From Rhodoblastus acidophilus (lineage in GTDB: Bacteria; Pseudomonadota; Alphaproteobacteria; Rhizobiales; Beijerinckiaceae), in contig NZ_FYDG01000001.1 in assembly GCF_900187365.1 (NCBI RefSeq), positions 930,001 to 994,000 on the forward strand: DNA of 64,000 nucleotides, given 5' to 3'. Numbering within the stretch: position 1 is the first letter of the stretch; every line of letters starts with the position of its first letter. The notes under the pieces are model-generated. The model was not told the DNA's origin and made no database searches. It was given only the letters and a program-made list of their open reading frames with translations. This document shows, piece by piece, positions 27,754 through 43,081 of the stretch. The position numbers and the translations under genes are program-made.

Positions 27754-28668
27754 CTACAACCAAAGGGCGACCGGCGCCCCCTTCCCGCCGGGGCGCTCGG
27801 CCCATTGCTGGGTGGCGATGGAGTGGAACTGCCCGTCGGCGCCCAACTGTCTCGCGGAAATGTGCAGACGCCGCGCGTTCACATCGAGGTCGATCAGATA
27901 ATAGGCGGCGCGCCGCCTGGGATTGCGGCCGATGGACGAGGCCGAGCCGATGCCCAGCACGGGGATCGGGCCGTCCGGGCCGGCCATCACTTTTCGGGAA
28001 ATGCTGTGGGCGTGGCCGTGCAGCACCAGTTCGGCGCCCTGGCGCGCCAGAACCGTGGCGAAATCGCGGTGGTCCTGGAGGTTGCGGATGGAGCCGCCGC
28101 CGTCCACCGGCGGATGGTGCAGCAGCACGACGCGCATGTCGTCGCGGGTCGCGTCGAGCATCTGCTCCAGCCGCTGCAATTGCGCCGCGCCGAGCTTGCC
28201 GGCGGCGACGAACGGCAGGGTCGGCACGCCCGAGCACAGGCCGATGACGGCGACGCCTTCGCGCCGGCGCAGGAAGGGAAAGCCGGTCCCCGGCGCGTCG
28301 CCGCTGATCCAGGGCCGCCATTCCCGCACCATCAGGCCGACGGACGCGCGCAAATAGGCGTCGTGATTGCCCGGCGCGAGGCTGACCTCGTCGGGTTCGC
28401 CCAGGGTGCGCATCCATTGCGCGGCGAACTGAAATTCCGCGGGAAGGCCGATGTTGCAGACATCGCCGGTCAGGGCGACGTGATCGGGTTTTTGCGCGCG
28501 CAAATCGGCGACCAGCGCCGCCAGCGCGTCCATGTCATGCGCCCGATGCCGCCCGCGCCGCCAGTTGATGTAGCCGGTGGCGCGCTTGCCGAGCAGCTCG
28601 CGCCATTTCGGGCGCGGCAGCGGGCCGATATGCGGGTCGGAAAGATGGGCGAGCCGGAAAAAACTCAT
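27754..28668 (-). CDS. Metallophosphoesterase (calcineurin-like)
   Basis: A 304-residue dinuclear-metal phosphoesterase. All motifs are present: LAHLSDPHIG (D-x-H), LTGDVCN (GD), LAPGNHDAYL (GNHD), VLLHHPP and LVLHGHAHS. The compact size and single-domain layout resemble the cyclic-nucleotide or UDP-sugar hydrolase branch, but the substrate cannot be told from sequence alone. The start ATG overlaps the TAA of mbfA by one base, so it is cotranscribed with that iron exporter. Confidence 0.9.
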   Translation of the reverse strand: MSFFRLAHLSDPHIGPLPRPKWRELLGKRATGYINWRRGRHRAHDMDALAALVADLRAQKPDHVALTGDVCNIGLPAEFQFAAQWMRTLGEPDEVSLAPGNHDAYLRASVGLMVREWRPWISGDAPGTGFPFLRRREGVAVIGLCSGVPTLPFVAAGKLGAAQLQRLEQMLDATRDDMRVVLLHHPPVDGGGSIRNLQDHRDFATVLARQGAELVLHGHAHSISRKVMAGPDGPIPVLGIGSASSIGRNPRRRAAYYLIDLDVNARRLHISARQLGADGQFHSIATQQWAERPGGKGAPVALWL

Positions 28669-29645
28669 TATGCGCCGCCAATCAAAATGCCGGTGAGCAG
28701 GACCACGACCCCGCCCACCACGATCTGCGCCACCGCCTTGAGGAAGGGCGTGTCCATGTAGCGCGCCCGGATATAGGCGATCGCCCAGAGTTCGACGAAA
28801 ACCACCGCCGCCGCAATCGCCGTGGCGGTCCAGAAGGCGTTGGGCCAGGAATCCGGCACGAGATAGGGCAGCGAATGGCCGAGGCCGCCGAGCGTGGTCA
28901 TGAACCCGCACACCGCGCCGCGAATGATCGGCGCGCCGCGCCCGGTGATCGAGCCGTCGTCGGACAAAGCCTCGGCGAATCCCATGGAAATGCCCGCGCC
29001 GAGCGAGGCGGCGAGGCCCACCAGAAAGGTCGAGAAATTGCTGTGGGTGGCGAAGGCGGCGGCGAACAGCGGCGCCAGCGTGGAGACCGAGCCGTCCATC
29101 AGCCCGGCCAGACCCGGCTGCACATATTGCAGCACAAAGAACCTGTGCGCGGTGCGCCCCTCTTCCTCGCGGGCGCTTTCCGTCAAAATGGCTTCCGACA
29201 GGGCGTTGGCCTTCTCGCCATGGCTGCGCTCGACCAGAGCGAGATCGCCGAGCAGCTTGCGCACGCCGACGTCCTTGGCCGCCTCCGCCGCCTGGATGTA
29301 GAAGCGCTGGGCGTCCTTCTCCATCGCCTCGGCCTGGCTGCGGATCATGTCGAGCGGCAGGTTCTTCAGCAGCCAGGTCGGGCGGCGGCTGTAATAGCCG
29401 CCGACGTCCTCACGGCGGATCGGCGGCAGGTTGCGGCCAAAGCGCGCCTGATAGATTTCCAGCAATTGCCGGCGATGGCCGTCTTCCTCCTCGGCCATCT
29501 CGACAAAAACTTTTGACGTCGCGGGATAGCGGTCGGCCAGTTCCTCGGAGAAGGAAAGGTAGATTCGGCTGTCCTCTTCTTCGGACGCGATGGCGATCGC
29601 CAGGATTTCGCGTTCCGTAAGGTCAGCAAATTTCTTCAGAGCCAA
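28668..29645 (-). CDS. mbfA: Membrane-bound ferritin-like iron exporter MbfA
   Basis: The 325 residues fuse a cytosolic erythrin-type ferritin domain (about 1-165) with iron ligands in SEEEDSRIYLSFSEELA and VEMAEEEDGHR to a VIT1/CCC1-type membrane domain (from about 170) with the conserved GLMDGSVSTLAPLFAAAFAT. In rhizobia MbfA exports ferrous iron and confers iron and peroxide tolerance, and is controlled by Irr. I could not find a convincing Irr box upstream, only an AT-richer stretch at 29680-29695. It is the first gene of a two-gene unit with the phosphoesterase. Confidence 0.93.
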   Translation of the reverse strand: MALKKFADLTEREILAIAIASEEEDSRIYLSFSEELADRYPATSKVFVEMAEEEDGHRRQLLEIYQARFGRNLPPIRREDVGGYYSRRPTWLLKNLPLDMIRSQAEAMEKDAQRFYIQAAEAAKDVGVRKLLGDLALVERSHGEKANALSEAILTESAREEEGRTAHRFFVLQYVQPGLAGLMDGSVSTLAPLFAAAFATHSNFSTFLVGLAASLGAGISMGFAEALSDDGSITGRGAPIIRGAVCGFMTTLGGLGHSLPYLVPDSWPNAFWTATAIAAAVVFVELWAIAYIRARYMDTPFLKAVAQIVVGGVVVLLTGILIGGA

Positions 29646-29742
29646 GTCCCTCTCCTCGCCGCGCGCCTCATCACGCGATTCGTAATTTAGCAGGAATTCG
29701 CCCGCATGATCGAGCGGTTACGCAGGATTGAGGACGCGCCGG

Positions 29743-30279
29743 ATGACATGGGTGGAGATTAGGCGAGAGACGGTTCAGGCTCAAGCGTCCAGACGGGAGG
29801 ACCGCCGGACGCGCTGGCGTCGTTTCTGGCAACGCCTGGTCCGCTTCGGCCAGCAGGGCGCCGGGCTGCTGCTGCGCGCGAAAACCCTGGGCGTGCGCGG
29901 CATGGCGCTCGACGACCGCAATCGCGTCTTCCTGGTGCGCCACACCTATTCGCCGGGGTTCTGCCTGCCGGGCGGCGGCGTCGAGCCGCGCGAAACCGCG
30001 CTGCGCTCGCTGGAGCGCGAACTCGACGAGGAAGGCGGGCTGGTCACGACCGGGCCGGCGCGCCTGGTCGGCTTCTACTACAATCCCCGGCACTCCCCGC
30101 GCGACCATGTGGTGTTCTATGTCGTCCCGGCGCGGCAGGCGCGGCCGCGTCCGCCGGACTGGGAGATCGCCGAATGTGGATTCTTTCCGCTCGACGCCCT
30201 GCCGGAGGACACGACGCCCGCCACCCGCGCGCATATTCAGGAAGCCCTGGGCCTCGCGCCGCCGTCGCTGCATTGGTGA
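29743..30279 (+). CDS. NUDIX hydrolase
   Basis: A 178-residue NUDIX protein hydrolysing a nucleoside-diphosphate-linked substrate. The box is GGGVEPRETALRSLERELDE followed by EGGL, matching G-x5-E-x7-R-E-U-x-E-E-x-G-U. The N-terminal 45 residues are very Arg-rich and unusual. The start at 29743 is chosen over the TTG at 29728 because AGGA lies about 9 bases before it. The gene lies upstream of ppc, whose promoter sits just after its stop codon. Confidence 0.88.
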   Translation: MTWVEIRRETVQAQASRREDRRTRWRRFWQRLVRFGQQGAGLLLRAKTLGVRGMALDDRNRVFLVRHTYSPGFCLPGGGVEPRETALRSLERELDEEGGLVTTGPARLVGFYYNPRHSPRDHVVFYVVPARQARPRPPDWEIAECGFFPLDALPEDTTPATRAHIQEALGLAPPSLHW

Positions 30280-30282
30280 GGC

Positions 30283-30310
30283 TTGCCGACGCCTCCGACT
30301 TTCGTATGAT
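30283..30310 (+). promoter_or_regulatory. Putative sigma-70 promoter of ppc
   Basis: TTGCCG (30283-30288), a 16-base spacer and TATGAT (30305-30310) lie immediately after the NUDIX stop and 43 bases before the ppc ATG. Both hexamers are close to consensus. Confidence 0.55.
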
Positions 30311-30352
30311 GGGGCCGCCGCGCGCCGATGCGGCTTCTGATGCGGAGCGACC

Positions 30353-33109
30353 ATGAACGGAGAGTTCCTCGAAACCGCCGCCGAAAGCGAAGCCGAAAGC
30401 GCCAAACTGGCGCCGCTGTTCGCCGACATCCGCCTGCTCGGGCAGATTCTCGGCGAAACCGTGCGCCAGCAGGAGGGCGAAGAGATTTTCCGCCGCATCG
30501 AGCGGATTCGCAGGCTGTCGGTGGCGGAGACGCGCGGCCGCGCCGTGGCTTCGGCCGATCTCGACGCGCTGTTGCGCGGCCTGACCAATGACGAGGCGGT
30601 GAAGGTGGTGCGCGCCTTCACCTATTTCTCCCATCTCGCCAATATCGCCGAGGACCGCCACTTTCTGCGCCGCCGCGCCGCCCATGCCGGGGAGGCGCAG
30701 CCGGGCGGACTCGACCACGCCTTCGCGCGGCTCAAGGCGGCGGGGGTGACGGAGACGGCCGTCGGGGCGGCGCTCGCCGGGGCCTATGTCTCGCCGGTTC
30801 TGACCGCGCATCCGACCGAGGTGCAGCGCCGCTCGACCCTCGACGCCGAACGCGACATCGCCGAACTGCTGCGCCAGCGCGAATTCCGATGCGGCGACGA
30901 GGAGCTGGCCGAAAACGAGGCGCTGCTCGCCGCCCGCGTCACCCAATTGTGGCAGACGCGCATCATCCGCACCGCCAGCCTCACCGTCCATGACGAGATC
31001 GAGAACGCGCTGCTCTATTACCGCTCGACCTTCCTCAAGCAGATTCCCAAGCTCTACGCCGAACTCGACCGCCGCCTCGGCGCGCCCGCGCCCTCGTTCT
31101 TCCGCATGGGCAACTGGATCGGCGGCGACCGCGACGGCAATCCCAATGTGCGCGCCGACACTTTGGCCGACACCCTGCGCCTGCATTGCGAGACGGTGCT
31201 GCGGCATTACCTCGTCGAGGTGCACCGGCTCGGCGGCGAATTGTCGATCTCCGATCTCGTCACCCCCTGCTCGGACGAATTGAAGGCGCTGGCGGCGCGG
31301 GCGGGCGACCCCAACCCGCATCGCGAGGACGAGTTTTACCGGCAGGCCCTGATCGGCGTTTACGCGCGGCTCGCCGGCACGCTGCGCGCCCTCGCCGGCG
31401 CCGAGGCGATGCGCCATGCGGCGGCGCACGGCGAACCCTACGCCCGGGCGGAGGAGTTCCGCGCCGATCTGTTTATCGTGCGCGAATCGCTCAACGCCCA
31501 CCACGGCAAGGCTCTGGCGGCCGGGCGGCTCGCCGCGCTGATCCGCGCCGTGGACGTGTTCGGCTTCCACATGGCCACCACCGATCTGCGCCAGTCCTCC
31601 GACCGGCATGAGGCCACGCTGGCCGAATTGCTCGCCGCCGTGCGGATCGAGCCGGACTATCGCGGCCTGTCCGAGCCGGCGAAAATCGACCTGCTGCTGC
31701 GCCTGCTGGCCGACCCGCGCCCGCTGCGCGCGCCCGACCGAACCTATTCGCCCGACTGCGTCGCCGAACTGGCGGTGCTGGAGACCGCGCGCGCGTGGCG
31801 GGAAAAACTCGGCCCCTGCGTGATTCGCCACGCCATCATCAGCCATACCGAAAGCGTGAGCGACCTTTTGGAGCTGATGCTGCTGCAAAAGGAATGCGGT
31901 CTCTTGCGCGGGTCGCTGCACGACAGCGAACAGGCCATCCTCGGCCTGATCGTCACCCCTTTGTTCGAAACCATCGAGGATTTGCGCGCCGCCGAACAGA
32001 TCATGCGCGAATTCTACGCCCTGCCGGGGATCGCCGACCTGATGCGGCGCTCCGGCGGCGTGCAGGACGTGATGCTCGGCTATTCCGATTCCAACAAGGA
32101 CGGCGGCTATCTCACCTCCAATTGGGAGCTTTACCGCGCCTCCACCGCGCTGGCCGCCCTGTTCGATTCGCTCGACGGCATGCGTCTGCGGCTGTTTCAT
32201 GGACGCGGCGGCGCGGTGGGGCGCGGCGGCGGCCCGTCCTATCAGGCCATTCTGGCGCAGCCGCCGGGCACGGTGCGCGGCCAGATCCGCCTCACCGAAC
32301 AGGGCGAGGTCATCAACGCCAAATACGCCAATCCCGAAATCGGCCGGCGCAATCTGGAAACGCTGATGGCGGCGGATCTCGAAGCCACCCTGCTCGCCGA
32401 CGGCCAGCGTCCCCCGGCCGAATTTCTGGACACCGCCGCGACGCTTTCCGAAGCCTCGATGCGCGCCTATCGCGCGCTGGTTTACGACACGCCCGGCTTC
32501 GTCGATTATTTCTACGCCGCCACCCCCATCGCCGAAATCGCGGAGCTGAACATCGGCTCGCGCCCGGCCTCGCGCAAGGCGACGCGCCGGATCGAGGATC
32601 TTCGCGCCATTCCCTGGAGTTTTTCCTGGGGCCAGAGCCGGGTCGCCCTGCCCGGCTGGTATGGGTTCGGCGCGGCGGTCGAGCAATTCCTCGCGTCCGG
32701 CGGCGCCCCGGATCTGTTGCGGCGGATGCACGCGGAATGGCCGTTTTTCCGCACGCTGCTGTCCAACATGGACATGGTGCTGGCCAAGGCGGATTTCTCC
32801 ATCGCCCAGCGCTATCGCGACCTCGTCCCCGACCGCGCCCTTGGCGATAAAATCTTCGTCGCCATCGAGGCCGAGGCGGAGCGGACGTTCCGCGCGCTCG
32901 ACGCGATCACCGGCGACCAGGGCCGCCTCGCCGACAATCCCGCTTTGGCGCGCTCGATCGCGCACCGATTCCCCTATATCGCCCCGCTCAACTATCTCCA
33001 GGCCGACCTGTTGCGGCGCTGGCGCGCCGGCGACCACGATCGCAAGGTGCGCATCGGCATTCTCGTGGCGATCAACGGCATCGCGGCGGGACTGCGCAAC
33101 ACCGGCTGA
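30353..33109 (+). CDS. ppc: Phosphoenolpyruvate carboxylase
   Basis: PEPC makes oxaloacetate from phosphoenolpyruvate and bicarbonate, refilling the TCA cycle; in serine-cycle methylotrophs it is also a carbon-fixing step. The 918-residue protein has the catalytic His153 in [13 protein letters not shown], the [18 protein letters not shown] segment, the glycine-rich [15 protein letters not shown] loop near residue 615, and the family C-terminus GLRNTG. Length is normal. A good promoter lies just upstream. A degenerate 57-bp copy of its 3' end is found after the next gene. Confidence 0.97.
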
Positions 33110-33212
33110 AAATCACTGGCGCTCATGCTCGGCTAAATATAATAATATTGTGACGCTGCGTCGTTGTGGTGCAGCCAACGTCATCCTTTGGTCATTACCA
33201 AAAAAGGAGGGC

Positions 33213-33299
33213 GTGGTTTCACTGTTCCCGATTGCCGTGAAATTAAGCCGAGATTTTAGCAGCCATGAATATGCTATCCTGCGCGTCGCGATCATGTGA
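33213..33299 (+). CDS. Possible 28-codon leader peptide before the sulfotransferase
   Basis: AAAAAGGAGG (33201-33210) is the strongest ribosome site in this stretch, and a GTG at 33213 opens 28 codons ending at TGA 33297-33299, past the presumed sulfotransferase start at 33265 in another frame. It may be a leader peptide giving translational coupling, or a fossil start of a broken gene. The encoded peptide (VVSLFPIAVKLSRDF...) has no recognisable family. Confidence 0.3.
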   Translation: MVSLFPIAVKLSRDFSSHEYAILRVAIM

Positions 33300-34239
33300 C
33301 GATGGCCATGAGACCAGCGTCAACGGCGCAAACGCCTCAGCGTCACAAAACGGGCCGCTGGTCATCCTGTCGCGAGGCCGCTCCGGCAGCACCTACGTCC
33401 AGCGCGTGCTCAATTGCTGCCGGAATTTGTATATATTCGGCGAGCATGATGGCGTCATCGCCTCCCTGGCGCGCGCGCTCGAAGGTTTCGAGCAGCACGG
33501 CGCGGCCGAGAACGCCGACAAGATCCTGACTAAAACCGGTGTTGAAGACAGTTTTCTGGCTTGGGGAACGCCGTTTTCCCACTCCGAGATCGTCGGGATG
33601 ATGGGTGAAACCCTCACGCGCGCCTTTACGGCGCGTCTTCCCGGATCTGACGCGAACACGATCTGGGGATTCAAGGAAATTCGCTATGACGGCGACGATG
33701 TGCGGCGCCTTCATGAGCTGTTTCCCGGACTGCGTGTTCTGATCATCTATCGGGATTTCGAGTCTTATGCGCACAGCGTTCACCGCGCGCATTGGCGCGA
33801 CACTGCGGTGGACGTCACGCACTACAAGAATATTCTCGACGGCTATGTTCAGTTCTACGAATCCGTCCTCGCCGTTTGCGACGAGCTTCAAATTCCATTC
33901 CAGATCGTTTCCTATGACGCGATGAAAGACGACTGGCGCATGATTGTGAAGGCGGTCGAAACCCTCGTTCAGCCTGCCGGCGTCGATGTCGATAGCGCCC
34001 GGGCCGAGGAGGCGGCGCGATTGAACGTCGATTTCTACGACAAGTCTCGCGCGGCGCCCGTCGATCCCGTTCGTTTCGGCGAGCTGATGGCGGGCGCCCT
34101 GGCTGGCGAAAACCGGCGCAGGTTGGAGGCTCTCGCCAAGACCATCCGGCGACGCGAGTTTTCGGCGCAGGGACATAAGCTGGCCGAAGCCTGGGGCTGG
34201 CTGACGACGGCGAAAGACAAGTTGCTGCATCGCGGCTGA
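33265..34239 (+). CDS. Sulfotransferase-family protein
   Basis: The 324-residue protein has the 5'-phosphosulfate loop VILSRGRSGSTYVQRVL near residue 33 and the 3'-phosphate-binding strand VLIIYRDFESYAHSV around 165, the pattern of PAPS-dependent sulfotransferases. It would sulfate a carbohydrate or other small acceptor. The first 29 residues precede the conserved fold and are of doubtful reality; no good ribosome site lies before the ATG. The flanking DNA is AT-richer, and a fragment of ppc follows it, so the gene looks inserted after ppc. The arylsulfatase in this window does the reverse reaction, but no link is shown. Confidence 0.82.
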   Translation: MNMLSCASRSCDDGHETSVNGANASASQNGPLVILSRGRSGSTYVQRVLNCCRNLYIFGEHDGVIASLARALEGFEQHGAAENADKILTKTGVEDSFLAWGTPFSHSEIVGMMGETLTRAFTARLPGSDANTIWGFKEIRYDGDDVRRLHELFPGLRVLIIYRDFESYAHSVHRAHWRDTAVDVTHYKNILDGYVQFYESVLAVCDELQIPFQIVSYDAMKDDWRMIVKAVETLVQPAGVDVDSARAEEAARLNVDFYDKSRAAPVDPVRFGELMAGALAGENRRRLEALAKTIRRREFSAQGHKLAEAWGWLTTAKDKLLHRG

Positions 34240-34249
34240 CGCGCCCTCC

Positions 34250-34315
34250 ATCGCCCTGCTCAACTCTCTGCAGGCCGACCTGTTGCGGCGCCGGCGCGCC
34301 AGCGACGCCGGCTGA
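34250..34315 (+). pseudogene. Degenerate copy of the ppc 3' end
   Basis: Bases 34250-34306 align without gaps to 32978-33034 inside ppc (52 of 57 identical), starting ATCGCC and ending GCGAC. Right after, GCCGGCTGA resembles the real ppc end (ACCGGCTGA at 33101-33109), so the segment is the ppc C-terminus with an internal deletion. It lies directly after the sulfotransferase stop and has no start of its own. Confidence 0.85.
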
Positions 34316-34356
34316 CGCCGCCCCGCGCGAAAAGGCTTACGCAGTGTGCGAAAGCC

Positions 34357-36072
34357 TCACGCCGCGCGAAGGTGCTGCAGCACGGACTGCATTTCCCGAC
34401 CGAGGTGCTCGGTCTGCTCCGACAGGGCGCCGGACGCCGCCAGCAAGCGCTCGCAGGCGTCGCGCGAGAGCGTCGTCGCCTGCTCCACCCTGGCGATATT
34501 GCCGGCGATGGCGTCGACGTCGAGCGAGGTTTGCGACGCATTGGCGGCGATTTCCTGCGTCGCCGCGTTTTGCTGCTCCACCACGCCGGAGATGCTCGCC
34601 GCCAGGCGATTGGCGTTGTCGGTGGTCTCGGCGATGGCGCACATCGAGCGCGAGGCGGTCTGGGTCGCCCGCTGCACCTCGTGCATTTGCGCGCTGATCG
34701 ATTCGATGGCGTTGGCGGTCTGGGTCGCCAGCGCCTTCACCTCCTGCGCCACCACCGCGAAGCCGCGCCCGGCCTCGCCTGCGCGCGCCGCCTCGATGGT
34801 CGCGTTGAGGGCCAGCATGTTGGTCTGCTGGGCGATCTCGCTGATGAGGCGCGTGATGTCGCCGATTTCGTCGGCGGCGACGCTCATCGCCTCGATCTGC
34901 GCCTTGCTCTGATCCGCCTCCTGCGCGGCGGCGGCGGAAGCGGTCTGGGTCTGGGAGAATTGCTGCGCGATTTCCGCGGTCGACGCGCTCAATTGTTCGG
35001 CCGCCGCCGCCATCGCCTGCACCTTGGCCGCCGCCGCCTGGGCGCCGGAGGTGACCGAAGTGGCCTGCGCCGCGCTTTCCTCGGTCGCCTGCAACATCGC
35101 CTCGACCGATTCCTGCAACTGTTGCGCGGCGCCGCCGATGCGGGCGATGACGCCGCCGACCGTCGCCTCGAAATGGTCGCCGAGCGCCAGCGCCTGCGCG
35201 CGCTGGGCCTGCCGCGCCTGCTCCTCCCGCGCGAGATTCTCCTGGCGCAGCCGGCCGTTCTCCTCGAGATTGGTCTGGAACACGGCGACGGCGCGCGCCA
35301 TCTTCCCCACTTCGTCCTTGCGATCCGCAAAGGGAATCGCCCCGACGCTCTCGCCATGCGCCAACAGATCCATCACGCCGGTCATGGCGATGATCGGACG
35401 GGAAATGGCCCCCGCGACGCCATACGCCATCGCCAGACCGCCGCCCAGCGCCAGCGCCGTGGCCAACAGCAGGTTGCGGATGCTGTCGCTCAAGAGCGCG
35501 GCGGTGCTGTCGGTGATGGCGGCCTGATCGGCGCGCAAGGCGGTGACGAGCGCCGAAGCGTCGGCGCTGAGCGCCTCGCTCTGCCGGGTGATTTCCGCCG
35601 CGTATCCTTCGAGCGCGCGGGCCATGGACTGGTCGTCGGCGGCCCCGCCCTGACGCGCCTCGGCCAGCGTGGCGCGCACCTCGAACACATGCGACACCTG
35701 CTGCGCCAGCTCCTGGTTTTTCTGGTCGGCGCGATCGAGCAGCGCGATGCTGGCGGCGCTGACGAAATCCTTGCGCAGCGTCGCCACGTCGTCATTGACC
35801 ACGCCGCCGATTTCCGACGCCTTGTCCATCAGGGCGTCGTCGCCGGTGCGCGCATAGGTCTGGGCGATCAGGCCGTAGGCGCTCATGTCCTGGGACAGTT
35901 TCTCGGCGCGCGCCATCAGCTCCGCCTTGCCGCGATAGTCGGCGAACAGCCCGTCAAGCCGGGACATCGAAGCGTAGGTCCAGGCCGAGGCCGCCGCGAG
36001 CAGCACAAGCATGCCGGCGACGCCCAGAGAAATCTTGGAGAAAATACTGAGATTGGCGATAACCGCGCGCAT
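34357..36072 (-). CDS. Methyl-accepting chemotaxis protein (four-helix sensor, HAMP)
   Basis: A 571-residue chemoreceptor. The first membrane helix (about 10-32) is followed by a roughly 160-residue all-helical periplasmic region, a second helix near 200-225, HAMP, and the cytoplasmic signalling coiled-coil with the hairpin tip [20 protein letters not shown]. Methylation-helix residues are Glu/Gln/Ala-rich. No che gene lies nearby. The C-terminus has no CheR-tether pentapeptide. The upstream gene is divergent. Confidence 0.93.
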
Positions 36073-36363
36073 GAGGGCGTTCCAGCAGCTTTGGGACTCG
36101 TCCGACGACCGCCCTCATGGCCGCGTCGGAGCAGTGCAGAGCGCGCCAGAATCGTCGCGCTTCGTCGACGCGAAGGCTCCAGTGGAACTCTGCGCGCCAA
36201 ACTTCTTTTAAACCAATGCGTCAGCACCGGTTAACAATATGGAAACGCGCGCCGGATTCCGCGCAACTGCGACTTTGCGGCGCAAGCATCCTAGGGTCAT
36301 CCCCTCCAAGGTGGAACCGCGCCGCGCCTCGGCGGTTCAAACATCCTCAAAGGGAGTCTGGCG

Positions 36364-36600
36364 ATGAGGGCATTCCAACGGATAGCGGTCGCAGCCGTCG
36401 CGACCCCGCTCAGCTTTTTCGGCGCCTTTGCGCAGGGCGTTTACATCGGGCCGGGCGGGGTCGGCATCGACACCGGCGCCCAGCGGCCGGCCGACCGGCT
36501 GGTCCGCGAATATGAGGACGACGACGGCTGCACCGTTCGCGTGATGCGGCATTATCGCCGCGACGGCGACGTCGTGACGCGCCGCGAACGCGAGTGCTGA
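36364..36600 (+). CDS. Small exported protein of unknown function
   Basis: A 78-residue protein with a signal peptide (MRAFQRIAVAAVATPLSFFG to FAQG) and a short mature part that is Gly-rich and then charged (YEDDDGCTVRVMRHYRRDG). A single cysteine pair and basic C-terminus are the only features. GGGAG lies 8 bases before the ATG. Similar short exported proteins with a GxGGVxID core are common in Rhizobiales; none has a known role. Confidence 0.7.
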   Translation: MRAFQRIAVAAVATPLSFFGAFAQGVYIGPGGVGIDTGAQRPADRLVREYEDDDGCTVRVMRHYRRDGDVVTRREREC

Positions 36601-36604
36601 CGCC

Positions 36605-36636
36605 AAACAAAAAGGCCGGAGCGCAGCCCCGGCCTT
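36605..36636 (-). terminator. Terminator of the atp F0 operon
   Basis: AAGGCCGG (36612-36619) pairs with CCGGCCTT (36629-36636) around a 9-base loop; read on the minus strand the hairpin is followed by TTTTTGTTTG. It lies 22 bases after the atpF stop and could also stop the small gene on the other strand. Confidence 0.7.
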
Positions 36637-36658
36637 CCCGCAAACAATGTGAAGACGC

Positions 36659-37135
36659 TCAGTTCACCAGCGTCTTGATGCTGGCGATGCCCTGATCGAC
36701 GAAGGCGGCCTGGTCGGCGGACGCCTTCAGCACGGTCTCGGCGGCCTTGATGGCGGCGTCGGTCGCCGCGGAGCGGACGTCGGCGATCGCCTGGGCCTCG
36801 GCCTGCGCGATCTTCTCGTCAGCCTGCTTCTTGCGGCGGGCGATATAGTCTTCCAGACGAACCTGCGCTTCGTTGGCCAGGGTCTCGGCTTCCGCCTTCG
36901 CCTGCGCGACGATGGAGGCCGCCTGCTGCTCAGCCTGCGCCGTCTTGCCGGCGAAGCTATCGAACAGGGCCTGAGCCTCGGCGCGCAGCCGGGAGGCTTC
37001 GTCGAGTTCGTTCTTGATCCGGTCGATGTGCGAGTCCAGTCCGCGGCCGATCATCTTGTGCACGCCGAGATAGGCGAAATACAGGATAAGAAGGACCGCG
37101 CCGAGCAGGAAATAGAATTCAGCATCAAATTCCAT
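36659..37135 (-). CDS. atpF: ATP synthase F0 subunit b
   Basis: Subunit b forms half of the peripheral stalk that holds F1 to the membrane. The 158 residues have one N-terminal membrane helix (FYFLLGAVLLILYFAYLGVH) and a long Ala/Glu/Gln coiled coil. The start at 37135 is fixed by AGGAGG 5 bases upstream. It follows the b' gene by 10 bases and ends the operon. Confidence 0.95.
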   Translation of the reverse strand: MEFDAEFYFLLGAVLLILYFAYLGVHKMIGRGLDSHIDRIKNELDEASRLRAEAQALFDSFAGKTAQAEQQAASIVAQAKAEAETLANEAQVRLEDYIARRKKQADEKIAQAEAQAIADVRSAATDAAIKAAETVLKASADQAAFVDQGIASIKTLVN

Positions 37136-37145
37136 GATGTCCTCC

Positions 37146-37700
37146 TCAGGCTTTCGCGGCGGCGACGGCGTCGACGACCGCCTTGGGGTCGGCGGCGCGG
37201 CCGGTGATGCGCTGCAGAATGGCGTGGGCCACTTCCACCGCGATGGCGTCGACATTTGCCATGGCGGCGGTCTTTGTCTCGGCGATCTTGGTCTCGGCCT
37301 CGGTCAGCTTGGCGCCGAGTTCGGCTTCGAGCTTGCCGCGGCTGGCGTCGGCGGCGGCGGCGGCCTCCGCATGGGCCTGCTGGCCGAGGGCCTGGGCCTT
37401 GGCCTTGGCCCCGGCCAGAGTCTTCTCATGCGCGGCGGCGGCGGCGGCGGCGGCCTCCTGCGCCTTGCGGGCGGCGGCGAGGTCGTCGGCGATGGCCTGC
37501 TTGCGGGTCGAGAAAATGCCGGCGACGCGCGGCAGGGCGACCTTCGACATCAGCAGATAGAGCGTGCCGAAGATCAGCGCCAGCCAGATCAGCTGAGGCG
37601 CGAAATAGGTCGAATCGAAGGGCGGGAACACATCTTCGTGGGCGGGACCGGCGGGAACCTCGGTTCCGGCGGCGTGCCCTTCAGCGCCTTGCGTGGCCAT
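37146..37700 (-). CDS. ATP synthase F0 subunit b'
   Basis: The diverged second b-type subunit found in alphaproteobacteria, pairing with b in the peripheral stalk. The 184 residues have a 35-residue N-terminal extension, one membrane helix (LIWLALIFGTLYLLMSKVAL) and an Ala-rich coiled coil with runs of alanine around 110-117. The start at 37700 follows AAGGAA with good spacing. Gene symbol usage varies (atpF2, atpG, atpX). Confidence 0.93.
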   Translation of the reverse strand: MATQGAEGHAAGTEVPAGPAHEDVFPPFDSTYFAPQLIWLALIFGTLYLLMSKVALPRVAGIFSTRKQAIADDLAAARKAQEAAAAAAAAHEKTLAGAKAKAQALGQQAHAEAAAAADASRGKLEAELGAKLTEAETKIAETKTAAMANVDAIAVEVAHAILQRITGRAADPKAVVDAVAAAKA

Positions 37701-37812
37701 GGACGTTCCTTGGTCGTCTTGAGGAGCGCTTTCATGCGGAGGCGAGGCCAGCCCGCGAACGAAAACGCGCAAACACCAAACTGAAGCGCGCCAGAACGCC
37801 CTTCAGCAAAGA

Positions 37813-37840
37813 CGCGCCCCGGCCGTGAAGCCGAGGCGCG
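37813..37840 (-). terminator. Hairpin between atpE and the b' gene
   Basis: 37813-37823 pairs with 37830-37840 (11 bp with one mismatch) six bases after the atpE stop. There is only TCTTTGC after it on the coding strand, so it is more likely a partial terminator or RNA-end stabiliser that raises atpE over the downstream genes, matching the high copy number of subunit c. Confidence 0.5.
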
Positions 37841-37846
37841 AAACGA

Positions 37847-38080
37847 TTACTTCGCGACGAACAGCAGGATCAGCGCGATCAGGAAGGCGAAGATGCCCAG
37901 ACCTTCGGCGAGCGCCGTGCCGATGAACACGCGGCCGAACTGGCCGTCGGAGGCGGACGGGTTGCGCAGCGCGCCCGACAGGAAGTTGCCCCAGATCGCG
38001 CCGACGCCGATCGCGGCCGCGCCAACGCCGATCGCCGCGAGGCCGGCGCCGATAAGTCTAGCTGCTTCAGAACCCATCAT
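37847..38080 (-). CDS. atpE: ATP synthase F0 subunit c
   Basis: The 77-residue proteolipid forms the rotating membrane ring. Two hydrophobic helices flank the polar loop [10 protein letters not shown]; the proton-carrying Glu lies in [13 protein letters not shown]. The GxGxGxG-like pattern of helix 1 ([17 protein letters not shown]) is intact. The second of two adjacent ATGs could also be used. Expression is probably boosted by the hairpin downstream. Confidence 0.97.
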
Positions 38081-38130
38081 AAGACTCCATTTTATATTGT
38101 GGGCGACTATTTGTTGTTGAGATAAAATTA

Positions 38131-38892
38131 TCAGTGGCCCGGGTGAAGCGCGTCATTGATGTAGACGCAAGTGAGAACAGCGAAAACGTAAGCTTGCAGC
38201 ACCGAGACCAGCAATTCGAAAGCGGTCAGCACGGTGATGCCGAGCAGCGGCAGCGGCGCGAGATAGGAATAGCCGGCGCCGAGCAGCATGACGCAGAAGC
38301 CGCCGAACACGACCAGCATGATATGGCCGGCCAGCATGTTGGCGAACAGACGAACCGAGAGCGAAACCGGACGGGAGATGAACGACAGGATTTCGATCAC
38401 GATGATGAACGGCAGCAGCGCCGGCATCACGCCCGACGGCTTGAACAGGCCGAACCAATGGAAGCCGTGCTTGTAGATGCCGTAAAGGATCGTCAGCAGG
38501 ATGATCGAGAACGCCAGGCCGGCGGTGATGATGATCTGCGCCATCACCTCATAAGTGTAGGGCCACAGGCCGATCAGGTTGCAGGCCAGCACGAACATGA
38601 ACAGGCTGAACACCAGCGGGAAGAACTTCATGCCGCTTTCGCCGCAGACCGAGCGCACCATGTCGGCGACGAACTCGTAAGCCATCTCGGCGGTGGCCTG
38701 CAGCCGGGTCGGGACGATCTTGCGGCCGCTGGTGCCGATCAGCATGATGAAGAACACCGCCAGCGCGCCGATCGCCATGAACAGCGCGGAATTGGTGAAG
38801 GAGGCGTCAACCCCGAAAATATCGAAGGGCTGCAGCACCTTGATATGAAACTGGTGGATGGGATCGACCGCGGGTGCGCCGGCTTCCGACAT
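38131..38892 (-). CDS. atpB: ATP synthase F0 subunit a
   Basis: The 253-residue stator subunit carries the proton half-channels. The essential arginine lies in [20 protein letters not shown]. Five or six hydrophobic helices are visible, and the C-terminus ends in the family-like [18 protein letters not shown]. Standard length for alphaproteobacteria. It lies 44 bases after atpI and 50 bases before atpE. Confidence 0.97.
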
Positions 38893-38936
38893 GTTCCGTC
38901 CTTCACTCTTGTCGCGGGCGAAACCCGCCGTCCGAA

Positions 38937-39317
38937 TTATTGCGGCGGCTGGTCGCCGTCCGGTTCATTGCCGCGACGGCTCTCGCCGGCGCGTGAAGCT
39001 GGCGGGGCCGCCAGCTTGTAGACATTGTTGAACCCCGCAGCCAGGCCGAATCCCAGAAACAGGATCAGCAGCCACGGGGCTGTTCCCAGCCAGACGTCCA
39101 GGCGCCACCCGATCAGCGCGCCAATGACCGTGGCCACGACGAATTCCGTGAGCACGCGAAAGCCGAGACTCATCGCACGCCCGAGGCTCTTGTCGGGGCC
39201 GGGATCGGAGCGGCTGCGCTCCTCGGCGATCTCCGCCTCGCGCTTCGCCTGAAGGTCGCTCGCCAATTTCGCAAGCCGCGCCTTCATGTCATCGGCGTCG
39301 TCGGACCCGTTCTGCAT
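38937..39317 (-). CDS. atpI: ATP synthase accessory protein AtpI
   Basis: The 126-residue membrane protein is the usual first gene of the operon and is thought to help c-ring assembly or magnesium handling. An N-terminal charged coiled segment (MKARLAKLASDLQAKREAEI) precedes two membrane helices (LTEFVVATVIGALIGWRL and APWLLILFLGFGLAAGF) and a basic/Pro-rich tail. The start at 39317 is supported by the promoter upstream at 39462-39490; a longer reading frame passes through that promoter. Confidence 0.9.
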   Translation of the reverse strand: MQNGSDDADDMKARLAKLASDLQAKREAEIAEERSRSDPGPDKSLGRAMSLGFRVLTEFVVATVIGALIGWRLDVWLGTAPWLLILFLGFGLAAGFNNVYKLAAPPASRAGESRRGNEPDGDQPPQ

Positions 39318-39680
39318 GACGCCCCCGGTCGATCCGCGAAGATCGGTTGGATGGATAAGGCGCGCCGACGGCCGCCTCGACAAGCAGGAGGTCGTTTGAA
39401 GCGCCGTCCGATGGAACCGGACGCCGGGACGCCAACGCCCCGCCCTTCTTGAACCGGGCGCACCATATTGACGCGACTTTCCGCTGTCAAGATAAGCCGG
39501 GGATTTCATCATCATTGTTAGCACTTTGATTTTAAACGGAAATATGCTCATTCGCCCGCAAAGGGGACCAAAGGTCTAGCGCAGGCGCCGCAACAACCCC
39601 GGCGCGCCGCCTCGACCCGGGGACGCGCAAGCCGTATAAACCGGCCGAAGGGATGCTCAAGCGAGGTCAAGCCGTCCATC
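39318..39680. other. Divergent promoter region between atpI and the SnoaL-like gene
   Basis: About 360 bases without a gene. A strong promoter for the atp operon is recognisable on the minus strand (39462-39490). No comparable promoter was found for the plus-strand gene. The segment near 39500-39545 is AT-rich. Confidence 0.5.
39462..39490 (-). promoter_or_regulatory. Sigma-70 promoter of the atp F0 operon
   Basis: On the minus strand TTGACA (39490-39485), a 17-base spacer and TATGGT (39467-39462) form a near-perfect promoter. The transcript would have a leader of about 140 bases before the atpI ATG. Confidence 0.7.
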
Positions 39681-40109
39681 ATGCGCCACGAAAACGATTT
39701 CCTCGGCGAGGATCCGCGCGCCGCGATTCGCGATCTGGTCGGCCAGGCCTACGCCACCCGATTCGATCTCGACACATTTCTCGGCTTTTTCCACGAGGAC
39801 GCCGTCTTTCACATCATCGGGCGGGTCCCCGCCTATCCGTACAGCGGCCTCTACGTCGGCAAGCCGGCGATTCGCGCCGCGCTGGCGCGGATCGACGGCG
39901 ACATCGAGCAGACCGACGGCCGGATGCTCAACATTCTCGTCGAGGGCGACACAATCGGCATTCGCCGCCGCAACAGCCTGCGCCATCGCGGCACGGCGGC
40001 GCGGCTCGACATCATGGTCGGCAATCTCATCAAGTTCCGCGATTTCAAGATCACCGAACTTTACGAATATATCGACACCAGCTGGCACGAAAAACTGGCG
40101 GGCGACTGA
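39681..40109 (+). CDS. SnoaL-like (NTF2-fold) protein
   Basis: The 142-residue protein has the NTF2-like cone fold: the helix FDLDTFLGFFHEDAVFHIIG, a GKPAIRAALARI helix and four strands ending LIKFRDFKITELYEYIDTSW. This SnoaL-like group includes small-molecule isomerases, cyclases and binding proteins, and the pocket residues do not tell which. It is monocistronic, with no strong ribosome site and no informative neighbours. Confidence 0.8.
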   Translation: MRHENDFLGEDPRAAIRDLVGQAYATRFDLDTFLGFFHEDAVFHIIGRVPAYPYSGLYVGKPAIRAALARIDGDIEQTDGRMLNILVEGDTIGIRRRNSLRHRGTAARLDIMVGNLIKFRDFKITELYEYIDTSWHEKLAGD

Positions 40110-40223
40110 AGCGCCGAAGGAACCGGACGCCGGAGGCTCCGCGTTCCCTCCTGACTTGAGCTTGCCGCTGCCCAAAAGCCTCGGCGGCGGCGCGCGGCGT
40201 GACGCCGACGAAAAGGAGGGGCC

Positions 40224-40796
40224 ATGTCGAGCGAGCGGCTGAAGGCGTTTTCCGACGGGGTGATCGCCATCATCATCACCATCATGGTTCTGGAGTTGAA
40301 ACCGCCGCACGGAGAGGAATTCGGCGCGCTGGTCGGACTCTGGCCGACCTTCCTCGCCTATGCCGTCAGCTTCACCTATGTGGCGATCTACTGGAACAAT
40401 CACCATCATCTGTTTTACCTGGTCGAATCGATCGACGGCGCGGTGCTCTGGGCGAATCTTGTCCTGCTGTTCTGCCTGTCGCTGCTGCCCTTCGCCACGG
40501 CCTGGGCGGCGGACACCGAATTCGCGTCGGCGCCGATGGCGCTCTATGGCGCCGACCTGCTCGCCTGCGCCACGGCCTATCTCGTGCTGGGGCGGGTGCT
40601 TTTGCGCGCGCAGGAGGCGGGTTCAAAGCTGCACGCGGCGATCGGCGACGATCTCAAGGGCAAGGTTTCCATGGCGCTCTATTTCGCGGGGATCGCCGCC
40701 GCTTTTTGGCGACCCTGGCTCGCCGGGGCCTTCTATATTACGGTGGCGGCGATCTGGCTGATTCCCGACCGCCGCATCGTCCGCGCGCTCGACTAA
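40224..40796 (+). CDS. TMEM175-like (DUF1211) potassium channel
   Basis: A 190-residue membrane protein with six hydrophobic helices. The N-terminal RLKAFSDGVIAIIITIMVLE carries the FSD motif of bacterial TMEM175 channels, which conduct potassium as tetramers. AAGGAGG lies just before the ATG. Its stop overlaps the stop of the convergent NifX-like gene by three bases. Confidence 0.85.
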   Translation: MSSERLKAFSDGVIAIIITIMVLELKPPHGEEFGALVGLWPTFLAYAVSFTYVAIYWNNHHHLFYLVESIDGAVLWANLVLLFCLSLLPFATAWAADTEFASAPMALYGADLLACATAYLVLGRVLLRAQEAGSKLHAAIGDDLKGKVSMALYFAGIAAAFWRPWLAGAFYITVAAIWLIPDRRIVRALD

Positions 40797-41188
40797 TGCC
40801 TTGAGAAGAAATCCCGCAGCTTGCAGAGGCTGGTGGTGATGTCGAATTTCTGGTCCGGCAAATCCTCTCCCGCGATCAGTTTGGTCAGCGCCGTCGCCGG
40901 ATCGGGTTCTCCGGTCAGGATGACGTCGGCGCCGCGCTTCTTCATGTGACGAACAAAACCGTCGCCGGCGCTGCCGGCGATCATCATCTCCACGCCGTCG
41001 AGCGGATGCGGGGCGTTTTCATCCTCGATGTAATGCGGCGTCTGCTCCTTGGTCAGCGTGACCCGCGCCGGCGCCGGCAGCGGCGCGCCCGGCGCGTGGC
41101 GGGCGAGATCGTACACCAGCCATTGCCGCGCCTGCCCGGCGTGGCCGCTCACTTCCGCGAAATCCTTTGTGGCGATAGCGACTTTCAT
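40793..41188 (-). CDS. NifX/NafY-like dinitrogenase cofactor-family protein
   Basis: A 131-residue protein of the NifB/NifX/NafY domain family that binds FeMo-cofactor or related Fe-S intermediates. The N-terminus KVAIATKDFAEVSGHAGQAR and the later VEMMIAGSAGDGFVRHMKKRGADVI are typical, the latter corresponding to the GGIGxxA region. There is one cysteine near the C-terminus. Without nif genes in this window, the role could be nitrogenase-related or a housekeeping Fe-S function. The start at 41188 is where homologs begin. Confidence 0.85.
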   Translation of the reverse strand: MKVAIATKDFAEVSGHAGQARQWLVYDLARHAPGAPLPAPARVTLTKEQTPHYIEDENAPHPLDGVEMMIAGSAGDGFVRHMKKRGADVILTGEPDPATALTKLIAGEDLPDQKFDITTSLCKLRDFFSRH

Positions 41189-41264
41189 GGCGTCTTGCTT
41201 TCTTTCTTGTCTCAATCGGCGGGGGGCCTGGGCGATCGCGGCGGCGGAGCATAATCTGCGCCAG

Positions 41265-41552
41265 ATGACGGAGACAAGTTGCGCCCTGTGCGGCCGGCCG
41301 CTCGGCGCGAAAACCGAGGCGCATCATCTCGTGCCGAAGACGTTTGGCGGCCGCGAAACCGTGCGGCTGCACCCGATCTGCCATCGCAAGATCCATGCGA
41401 CCCTGTCCGAGCGCGAGCTGCGCGACCGCTACGCCGCGCTGGACGCCCTGCGCGCCCAGCCGGACATCGCCCTGTTCCTGCGCTGGATCGCCAACAAGCC
41501 GCCCGATTTCCACACCCGCACGCAAACGAGTCGCGCCCGCCGCCGCCGTTGA
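41265..41552 (+). CDS. Small HNH endonuclease-like protein
   Basis: The 95 residues contain a compact HNH/beta-beta-alpha-Me core: CALCGRPLGAKTEAHHLVPK, TFGGRETVRLHPICHRKIHA. The C-x2-C and C-x-H positions would bind structural zinc; the paired His in AHHLVPK is the catalytic one. It is not next to a phage or toxin system. Its function (restriction, repair or other) is open. It overlaps no other accepted gene; the NifX-like gene upstream is divergent. Confidence 0.8.
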   Translation: MTETSCALCGRPLGAKTEAHHLVPKTFGGRETVRLHPICHRKIHATLSERELRDRYAALDALRAQPDIALFLRWIANKPPDFHTRTQTSRARRRR

Positions 41553-41635
41553 GATCTGCGGAACCTTGAAGCGAGCGTTATCGTTTCCCCAGCGTCCCGC
41601 CAGCGCGTCGCGGGACGACGCAGGGAGGCGAGCGG

Positions 41636-43081
41636 GTGCGGGCAGGCCTGAAGTACCAGCATATCGTCCCCGATGTCGGCTGCCGATGCTGCGACCGGCG
41701 CCTGGGCGCATTTAGCCGCCGCGCCGAGGCGGCGCTGTCGCGGCGCTGGGTCGCGGCCGGCGCCCCCGGTCCCGCCCCCGCCGCGCCGCCGCCCGCCGGC
41801 GTCGAATCCCCGGCGCCCGCCGAAAAAATCCTGTTCGAACAGGTGCGCGTTTTCGACGGCGAATCCGACGCGCTGTCGGAGCCCTGCGACGTGCTGGTGT
41901 CCGGCAATCTCATCGAGACCATTTCGCCCGAGCCGCTCGCCGCGGGCGAAACGACTCCGCTGCGCGTGCCTGGCCGGGGCAAAACGCTGATGCCCGGCCT
42001 GATCGACGCCCACACCCATCTCATGTTCGCCACCCTGCCGCAGATGGCCCTGCTCACGTCGGACATCGGCTTCGTCCATGTCGCGGCGGTCAAGGCGGCG
42101 CAGGACATGCTGCTGCGCGGCTTCACCAGCGTGCGCGATCTCGGCGGCCCCGTGTTCGGGCTGAAACGCGGAATCGACGCCGGGCTGGCGACCGGCCCGC
42201 GCATCTGGCCGTCCGGCGCCTTCATCTCGCAAAGCGGCGGCCACGGCGATTTCCGCCTGCCCAACGACCTGCCCGCGCGCCCCGGCGACTATAGTTTCAG
42301 CGAGCGCGCCGGCGCCTCCGCCATCGCCGACGACCCCGCGACCGTGCGCAAGCGCGCCCGCGAGCAACTGGCGCTCGGCGCCTCGCAGATCAAGCTGATG
42401 GCGGGCGGCGGGGTGGCCTCGCCGTTCGATCCGCTCGACGTCACCCAGTTCACGCCCGAGGAAATGCGCGCCGGCGTCGAGGCGGCGGAAAACTGGGGGA
42501 CCTATGCGACGGTCCACGCCTATGCGCCGCGCGCGGTGCGTCAGGCGGTCGAGGCCGGGGCGCGTTGCGTCGAGCATGGCCAGTTGCTCGACGAGGCCAC
42601 GGTGGCGCTGCTGGCGGAAAAGGACATCTGGTGGAGCCTGCAGCCGTTCCTCGACATCGCCCCCAGCCCGTTTCCGGAAGGGTCGGCGGCGCGCCGCAAG
42701 GAGCTGGCGATGTTTCGGGGCACGGACAGCGCCTACCGGCTCGCGATCAAGCACGGCGTCCGCACGGCCTGGGGGGCGGACATCCTGTTCGACCCGGCCG
42801 CCGCCGCGCGGCAGGGCGCGCATCTGACTCGCCTGCTGCGCTGGTTTTCCGCCCCGCAAATTCTGAAAATGGCGACCTCGGGCAACGCCGCGCTGCTAGC
42901 GCTGTCCGGCCTGCGCAGCCCCTATGAAGGGCGGCTGGGCGTGGTGAAGGAGGGCGCGCTGGCCGACCTGCTGCTGATCGACGGCGATCCGCTGGCCGAT
43001 CTCAGTCTGCTCGAGCGGCCGGAGACGTCGCTGCTTATGGTGATGAAGGACGGCAGTATTTACAAGAACATCGCCCTGTAA
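41636..43081 (+). CDS. Metal-dependent amidohydrolase
   Basis: A 481-residue TIM-barrel amidohydrolase with a binuclear metal site: DAHTHLMF (HxH), IKLMAGGGVAS (carbamylated-Lys candidate), ATVHAYAP and CVEHGQLL (His ligands) and TAWGADILFD (Asp). This set is typical of the imidazolonepropionase/prolidase-like branch that cleaves small amides or peptides. The GTG start at 41636 has AGGGAGG 8 bases before it. The first 60 residues are unusual: a Cys cluster (CRCCDRR), a twin-arginine-like SRRWVAAG, then a Pro/Ala linker. This could be a degenerate export signal. Confidence 0.9.
   Translation: MRAGLKYQHIVPDVGCRCCDRRLGAFSRRAEAALSRRWVAAGAPGPAPAAPPPAGVESPAPAEKILFEQVRVFDGESDALSEPCDVLVSGNLIETISPEPLAAGETTPLRVPGRGKTLMPGLIDAHTHLMFATLPQMALLTSDIGFVHVAAVKAAQDMLLRGFTSVRDLGGPVFGLKRGIDAGLATGPRIWPSGAFISQSGGHGDFRLPNDLPARPGDYSFSERAGASAIADDPATVRKRAREQLALGASQIKLMAGGGVASPFDPLDVTQFTPEEMRAGVEAAENWGTYATVHAYAPRAVRQAVEAGARCVEHGQLLDEATVALLAEKDIWWSLQPFLDIAPSPFPEGSAARRKELAMFRGTDSAYRLAIKHGVRTAWGADILFDPAAAARQGAHLTRLLRWFSAPQILKMATSGNAALLALSGLRSPYEGRLGVVKEGALADLLLIDGDPLADLSLLERPETSLLMVMKDGSIYKNIAL

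Follow-up and report, generated by a model that had tools for sequence, protein, structure and literature searches.

How does a single gene come to lie between the intact end of a housekeeping gene and a decayed copy of that same end? The window, the 64,000-nucleotide stretch of Rhodoblastus acidophilus DNA analysed here, raises this question downstream of ppc, where a predicted sulfotransferase gene is bracketed in just this way.

The ppc 3′ end and its decayed copy

The features of the locus are as follows.

30353–33109, plus strand: ppc, phosphoenolpyruvate carboxylase, intact (PF00311 profile positions 3–919 of 919)
32972–33034, plus strand: left repeat copy, within the ppc 3′ end (repeat search; ppc-end search of the flank)
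33110–33264, no strand: AT-rich leader between the ppc stop and the sulfotransferase gene, 47% GC (GC count)
33265–34239, plus strand: predicted sulfotransferase gene (Sulfotransfer_3), 324 aa, 60% GC (PF13469, E 1e-9)
34233–34242, plus strand: CGGCTGACGC around the sulfotransferase stop, identical to 34309–34318 at the end of the ppc fragment (gene-end comparison)
34244–34306, plus strand: right repeat copy, decayed ppc 3′ end fragment (56/63 match)
34307–34315, plus strand: end of the ppc fragment with stop codon, probably after a 66-nt internal deletion (sequence; Markov-1 simulation)
34357–36072, minus strand: methyl-accepting chemotaxis protein gene, extra to the interval compared with relatives (profile search)

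The ppc product, at 918 aa, covers the whole PEPcase profile (PF00311), which supports the claim of an earlier note on this DNA that the gene is intact; its nearest named relatives are the proteins of Rhodoblastus sphagnicola (88% identity) and R. acidophilus (87%). When the last 403 bases of ppc were searched against the following 12 kb, 32972–33034 aligned with 34244–34306 without a gap at 56 of 63 bases (89%; 83.3 bits, E 7e-19). The 52 matches in 57 positions previously counted between 32978–33034 and 34250–34306 are correct, and six more bases on the left complete the repeat. The copy also ends in GGCTGA, as had been noticed, in the form of CCGGCTGA at 34308–34315, but it does so beyond a gap: counting its stop codon, ppc runs on for 75 nt from position 33035, the counterpart in the copy has 9 nt, and 66 nt are missing from the copy. 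Because CCGGCTGA falls inside the first 15 nt in 0.030–0.035% of Markov-1 simulations, this terminus is probably the true ppc end, with an internal deletion before it. Given the gapless match and the terminus that follows the missing bases, the second copy is, on its sequence, a ppc 3′ end that is truncated, has an internal deletion and keeps the stop codon.

A match of this kind might be ascribed to chance or convergent similarity of GC-rich sequence. The genome is indeed GC-rich, and 464 kb of the same contig hold, at E ≤ 1e-3, 14 pairs of direct repeats within 4 kb, ten of which score at least 83 bits, with the ppc pair as the tenth. An unrelated place in R. sphagnicola (G010:C87:14420-14479) likewise matches 34269–34329, overlapping the fragment, over 60 bp at 80% (53.6 bits); by eye it reads as coding for a protein other than ppc, and short GC-rich matches are therefore not unique. 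Against chance stand the score and E-value reached over 63 gapless bases here, together with the retained terminus, and we regard this explanation as having almost no probability. Genes were predicted from codon-position GC over the 464 kb, both for the context of the repeats and for the gene ends discussed below. Both copies lie in predicted genes in 12 of the 14 pairs and outside them in one (near 691751), and the ppc pair alone is split, its left copy in a predicted gene and its right copy in none. Elsewhere in the contig, a local direct repeat of 78 bp at 97% (L140, G000:C29:691751-691990) has both copies outside predicted genes, and one of 316 bp at 93% (L135, G000:C29:602986-603645) has both copies inside a predicted gene.

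Origin and decay of the fragment

Comparison with ppc of the nearest relatives indicates where the fragment came from. Over its 63 bases it agrees with the ppc of its own genome against G010 (R. sphagnicola), G001 and G002 at 5, 6 and 9 sites, respectively, and at no site does it agree with any of these three against its own ppc. With the more distant G004 and G009 it shares one site each that its own ppc does not, in a fragment of only 63 bp. On these shared sites, the fragment is derived from the ppc of its own lineage. The seven differences between fragment and ppc are spread over codon positions 1, 2 and 3 as 2, 3 and 2, as expected of a copy free of selection, and the earlier description of a fossil fragment is supported by these changes at all three positions.

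A sulfotransferase gene of probably foreign origin

Like Sulfotransfer_3 proteins, the product predicted from 33265–34239 matches the PF13469 profile (39.4 bits, curated cut-off 27); it differs in falling into no NCBIfam family at E 0.01 and in matching no PDB sequence at E 0.1. Residues 36–42, SRGRSGS, have what we take to be a resemblance to the PAPS-binding loop. Both the gene and its leader are poorer in GC than the surrounding region (28000–42000, 66% GC). Of the AT-rich flanks previously claimed on both sides of the gene, the left one is borne out by the leader, whereas on the right only four bases separate the stop from the start of the copy.

The gene had been taken as an insertion, and in a protein search it is indeed absent from all ten other Rhodoblastus genomes; a DNA search of the genus with 33110–34400 returned only matches of 43–60 bp, all at other places, in the genomes of G002 and G010, among them the 60-bp match to the fragment described above. 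Beyond the genus, the family sample gave one weak partial match among 79 other genomes, and the order, class and phylum samples (397, 385 and 398 genomes, own included, with overlap between samples) gave weak matches in 4 of 396, 1 of 384 and 2 of 397 other genomes. The matches from these three samples have 25–36% identity and are mostly partial; the one in G210 spans residues 20–305 at 30% and is interrupted by a stop. An origin from a plasmid or phage was considered and rejected, since neither collection yielded a match at E 1e-5, and viral contigs gave a match of 23 residues only. No donor was found in the family, order, class, phylum, plasmid or phage searches. The natural reading of this distribution is that the gene was acquired horizontally and is probably foreign.

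A variable stretch between ppc and the atp genes in Rhodoblastus

The order nudix–ppc–interval–atpF is kept in eight of the ten other genomes of the genus. In G010, the 11.8 kb read 3′ of ppc contain none of the tested window genes; the G005 contig breaks off about 0.8 kb past ppc, which limits the flank to that length. Across the eight genomes the ppc–atpF interval is shortest in G006, at 57 bp, where it is nearly empty with a hairpin plus a few bases; six genomes have about 1 kb there, and G002 has about 2.1 kb. In the present genome the interval extends over 3.55 kb (33110–36658) and holds the sulfotransferase gene, the ppc fragment, the chemoreceptor gene and a small gene. Its content differs as well. 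Judged by eye from translations in the eight genomes, G003, G007, G008 and G009 have in common two small proteins that look secreted, a thioesterase-looking gene is present in G001, and G002 has a 263-aa ORF adjoining ppc. In length and content, the ppc–atp interval is a small variable intergenic spot within Rhodoblastus. The small gene at 36364–36600, for a secreted-looking protein of 78 aa, occurs in the same interval in G001 and G002 at 60–62% identity, so that what is additional here is the sulfotransferase gene, the fragment and the chemoreceptor gene.

The earlier note had proposed comparing the region downstream of ppc in relatives. The fragment is absent from the ppc flanks of all ten other genomes of the genus (in G005 from about 0.8 kb only), and none of these flanks shows the fragment without the sulfotransferase, a state that would have marked the duplication as older and unrelated. 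The idea that the DNA to the right of the fragment is the original downstream region of ppc finds no support, as this DNA has no significant similarity to the sequence that follows ppc in any of the ten genomes (p 0.076 to 0.77 against shuffled sequence).

For the chemoreceptor gene, the four nearest relatives (67–70%) are located away from ppc, one each in G010 and G001 and two in G002. Their flanks diverge at the stop codon, and the idea that the gene brought its own 3′ flank was dropped. Directly after the chemoreceptor gene, at 34330–34356, sequence and fold prediction give a minus-strand hairpin with TTTT behind it; a pattern scan did not list this element, which is probably the terminator of the chemoreceptor gene.

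Comparison with integrative elements at gene 3′ ends

Some integrative elements have their attachment site in a gene 3′ end, and their integration leaves an intact gene on one side and a 5′-truncated copy with a stop codon on the other. Intact ppc on the left and a 5′-truncated copy with its stop on the right form this same pattern, a direct repeat of a gene 3′ end flanking cargo, and the locus could be read as a site-specific integrative element, with attL and attR in the ppc 3′ end, that is now down to one cargo gene. It departs from such elements in three respects: no recombinase is recognised, the repeats are 89% alike with a 66-nt deletion, and there is no recurrence at the ppc loci tested. 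The ORFs of at least 90 aa between the repeats are the sulfotransferase gene, two antisense to it and one in an alternate frame that begins inside ppc; the last three have no Pfam match at E 0.01, and no recombinase or relic of one was recognised among them. The plasmid and phage records, moreover, are without a relative of the sulfotransferase.

Recurrence was assessed in 86 other ppc flanks from 78 distinct genomes, ranging from Rhodoblastus to Burkholderiales. These comprise 79 of 80 loci (the best 80 of 201) and the ten genus regions, less L098, L108 and L120, whose flanks are shorter than 200 bp; L099 was left out because its match stops before the ppc C-terminus. Eight flanks are duplicates, L047–L053 and L076 being the regions of G010, G001, G009, G007, G004, G006, G005 and G008, and flank lengths run from 0.2 kb to 6 kb, or 12 kb for the genus regions. 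A duplicated ppc end was found in none of the 86. The best scores in these flanks are 40 bits with the 3′ end and 45 bits with the whole gene as query, compared with 83 bits here; each of these two matches covers fewer than 30 bases and lies on the opposite strand. A recurrent element at ppc is rejected on this count, and the hint of an element targeting the ppc 3′ end is supported neither by these flanks nor by the ORFs between the repeats. In the open-licence literature, we found nothing on ppc as an integration site or on Rhodoblastus with a sulfotransferase. We therefore hold a decayed integrative element to be very unlikely. It is more improbable again that the ppc 3′ end serves as attachment site for an undescribed non-autonomous unit that carries single cargo genes, has its recombinase encoded elsewhere and was caught here once after decay.

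Joints and possible recombination with a close donor

The stop codon of the sulfotransferase gene lies within CGGCTGACGC, a ten-base sequence that also forms the end of the ppc fragment. Among 353 genes predicted in the 464 kb, two end in CGGCTGACGC, namely the sulfotransferase gene and one of the 352 others, and the ten bases occur 14 times on both strands. This identity suggests that copies of the ppc terminus met at a joint, such as the inner joint of a short tandem ppc-end duplication that later received new DNA. It is weak evidence, because the match was noticed after looking and because 15 of the 353 genes end in CGGCTGA, ppc and the sulfotransferase gene among them by sequence.

In homology-facilitated illegitimate recombination, the illegitimate joint often falls at short microhomology. 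Such a process could have acted here if ppc and the sulfotransferase gene had arrived together from a near-identical donor, with a homologous joint in ppc, an illegitimate joint on the right and the recipient's old ppc end displaced. The geometry of intact gene, new DNA and displaced 3′ end fits this account, in which ppc is the possible anchor. As possible microhomology, CGGCTGA stands at the ppc end and recurs at the sulfotransferase end, the latter with its ten bases in common with the fragment end. Yet no state of the three ppc lineages nearest to this one appears in the fragment, so that only a very close strain already carrying the gene could have been the donor. The last 900 bp of ppc, compared with three relatives, are uneven in identity (0.65–0.97 per 75 bp) and reveal no switch of ancestry at the end. 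We consider this account unlikely.

It nevertheless has parallels. In the available text of PMC5361080, homology-facilitated illegitimate recombination is proposed for displaced genes in the T6SS clusters of V. cholerae, including an effector gene 3′ end shifted back, and in that of PMC2884548 it is proposed for dimorphic small variable segments in bacterial genomes. As far as these texts go, the likeness is that new DNA adjoins a conserved gene and the old 3′ part is left behind with no mobile element needed; the difference is that donor and recipient ppc are indistinguishable here, and the event is seen once. The event at ppc resembles homology-facilitated illegitimate recombination and is ordinary in kind.

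A probable one-off scar of gene capture

The explanation that we favour, and judge probable, is that the ppc terminus was partly duplicated once, in this lineage, and that, coupled to this, a gene gained horizontally was captured illegitimately at a variable spot between genes. Against it weigh the shortness of the fragment, the single sites shared with G004 and G009, the lack of significant similarity between the DNA beyond the fragment and the sequence 3′ of ppc in relatives, and the absence of a donor from the searches above. We infer that about 140 bp of the genome's own ppc 3′ end would have been duplicated downstream, and that the acquired sulfotransferase gene, with its AT-rich leader, would have been placed between intact ppc and the copy. 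Illegitimate recombination is the likely route. A short tandem duplication may have come first and the insertion second, or template switching during repair may have produced both at once. Released from selection, the copy would then have lost 66 bp and gained point changes. Of the earlier interpretation, the intact ppc, the fossil copy and the relatives without gene and fragment are retained, and the element targeting the ppc 3′ end is not.

We conclude that the locus is a real but ordinary gene-capture scar, confined to this lineage among the genomes tested. Rather than a new system, it offers one clean example, set in a variable stretch between genes, of a fossil that can still be read: a single, probably foreign gene may enter next to a housekeeping gene with no mobile element involved.
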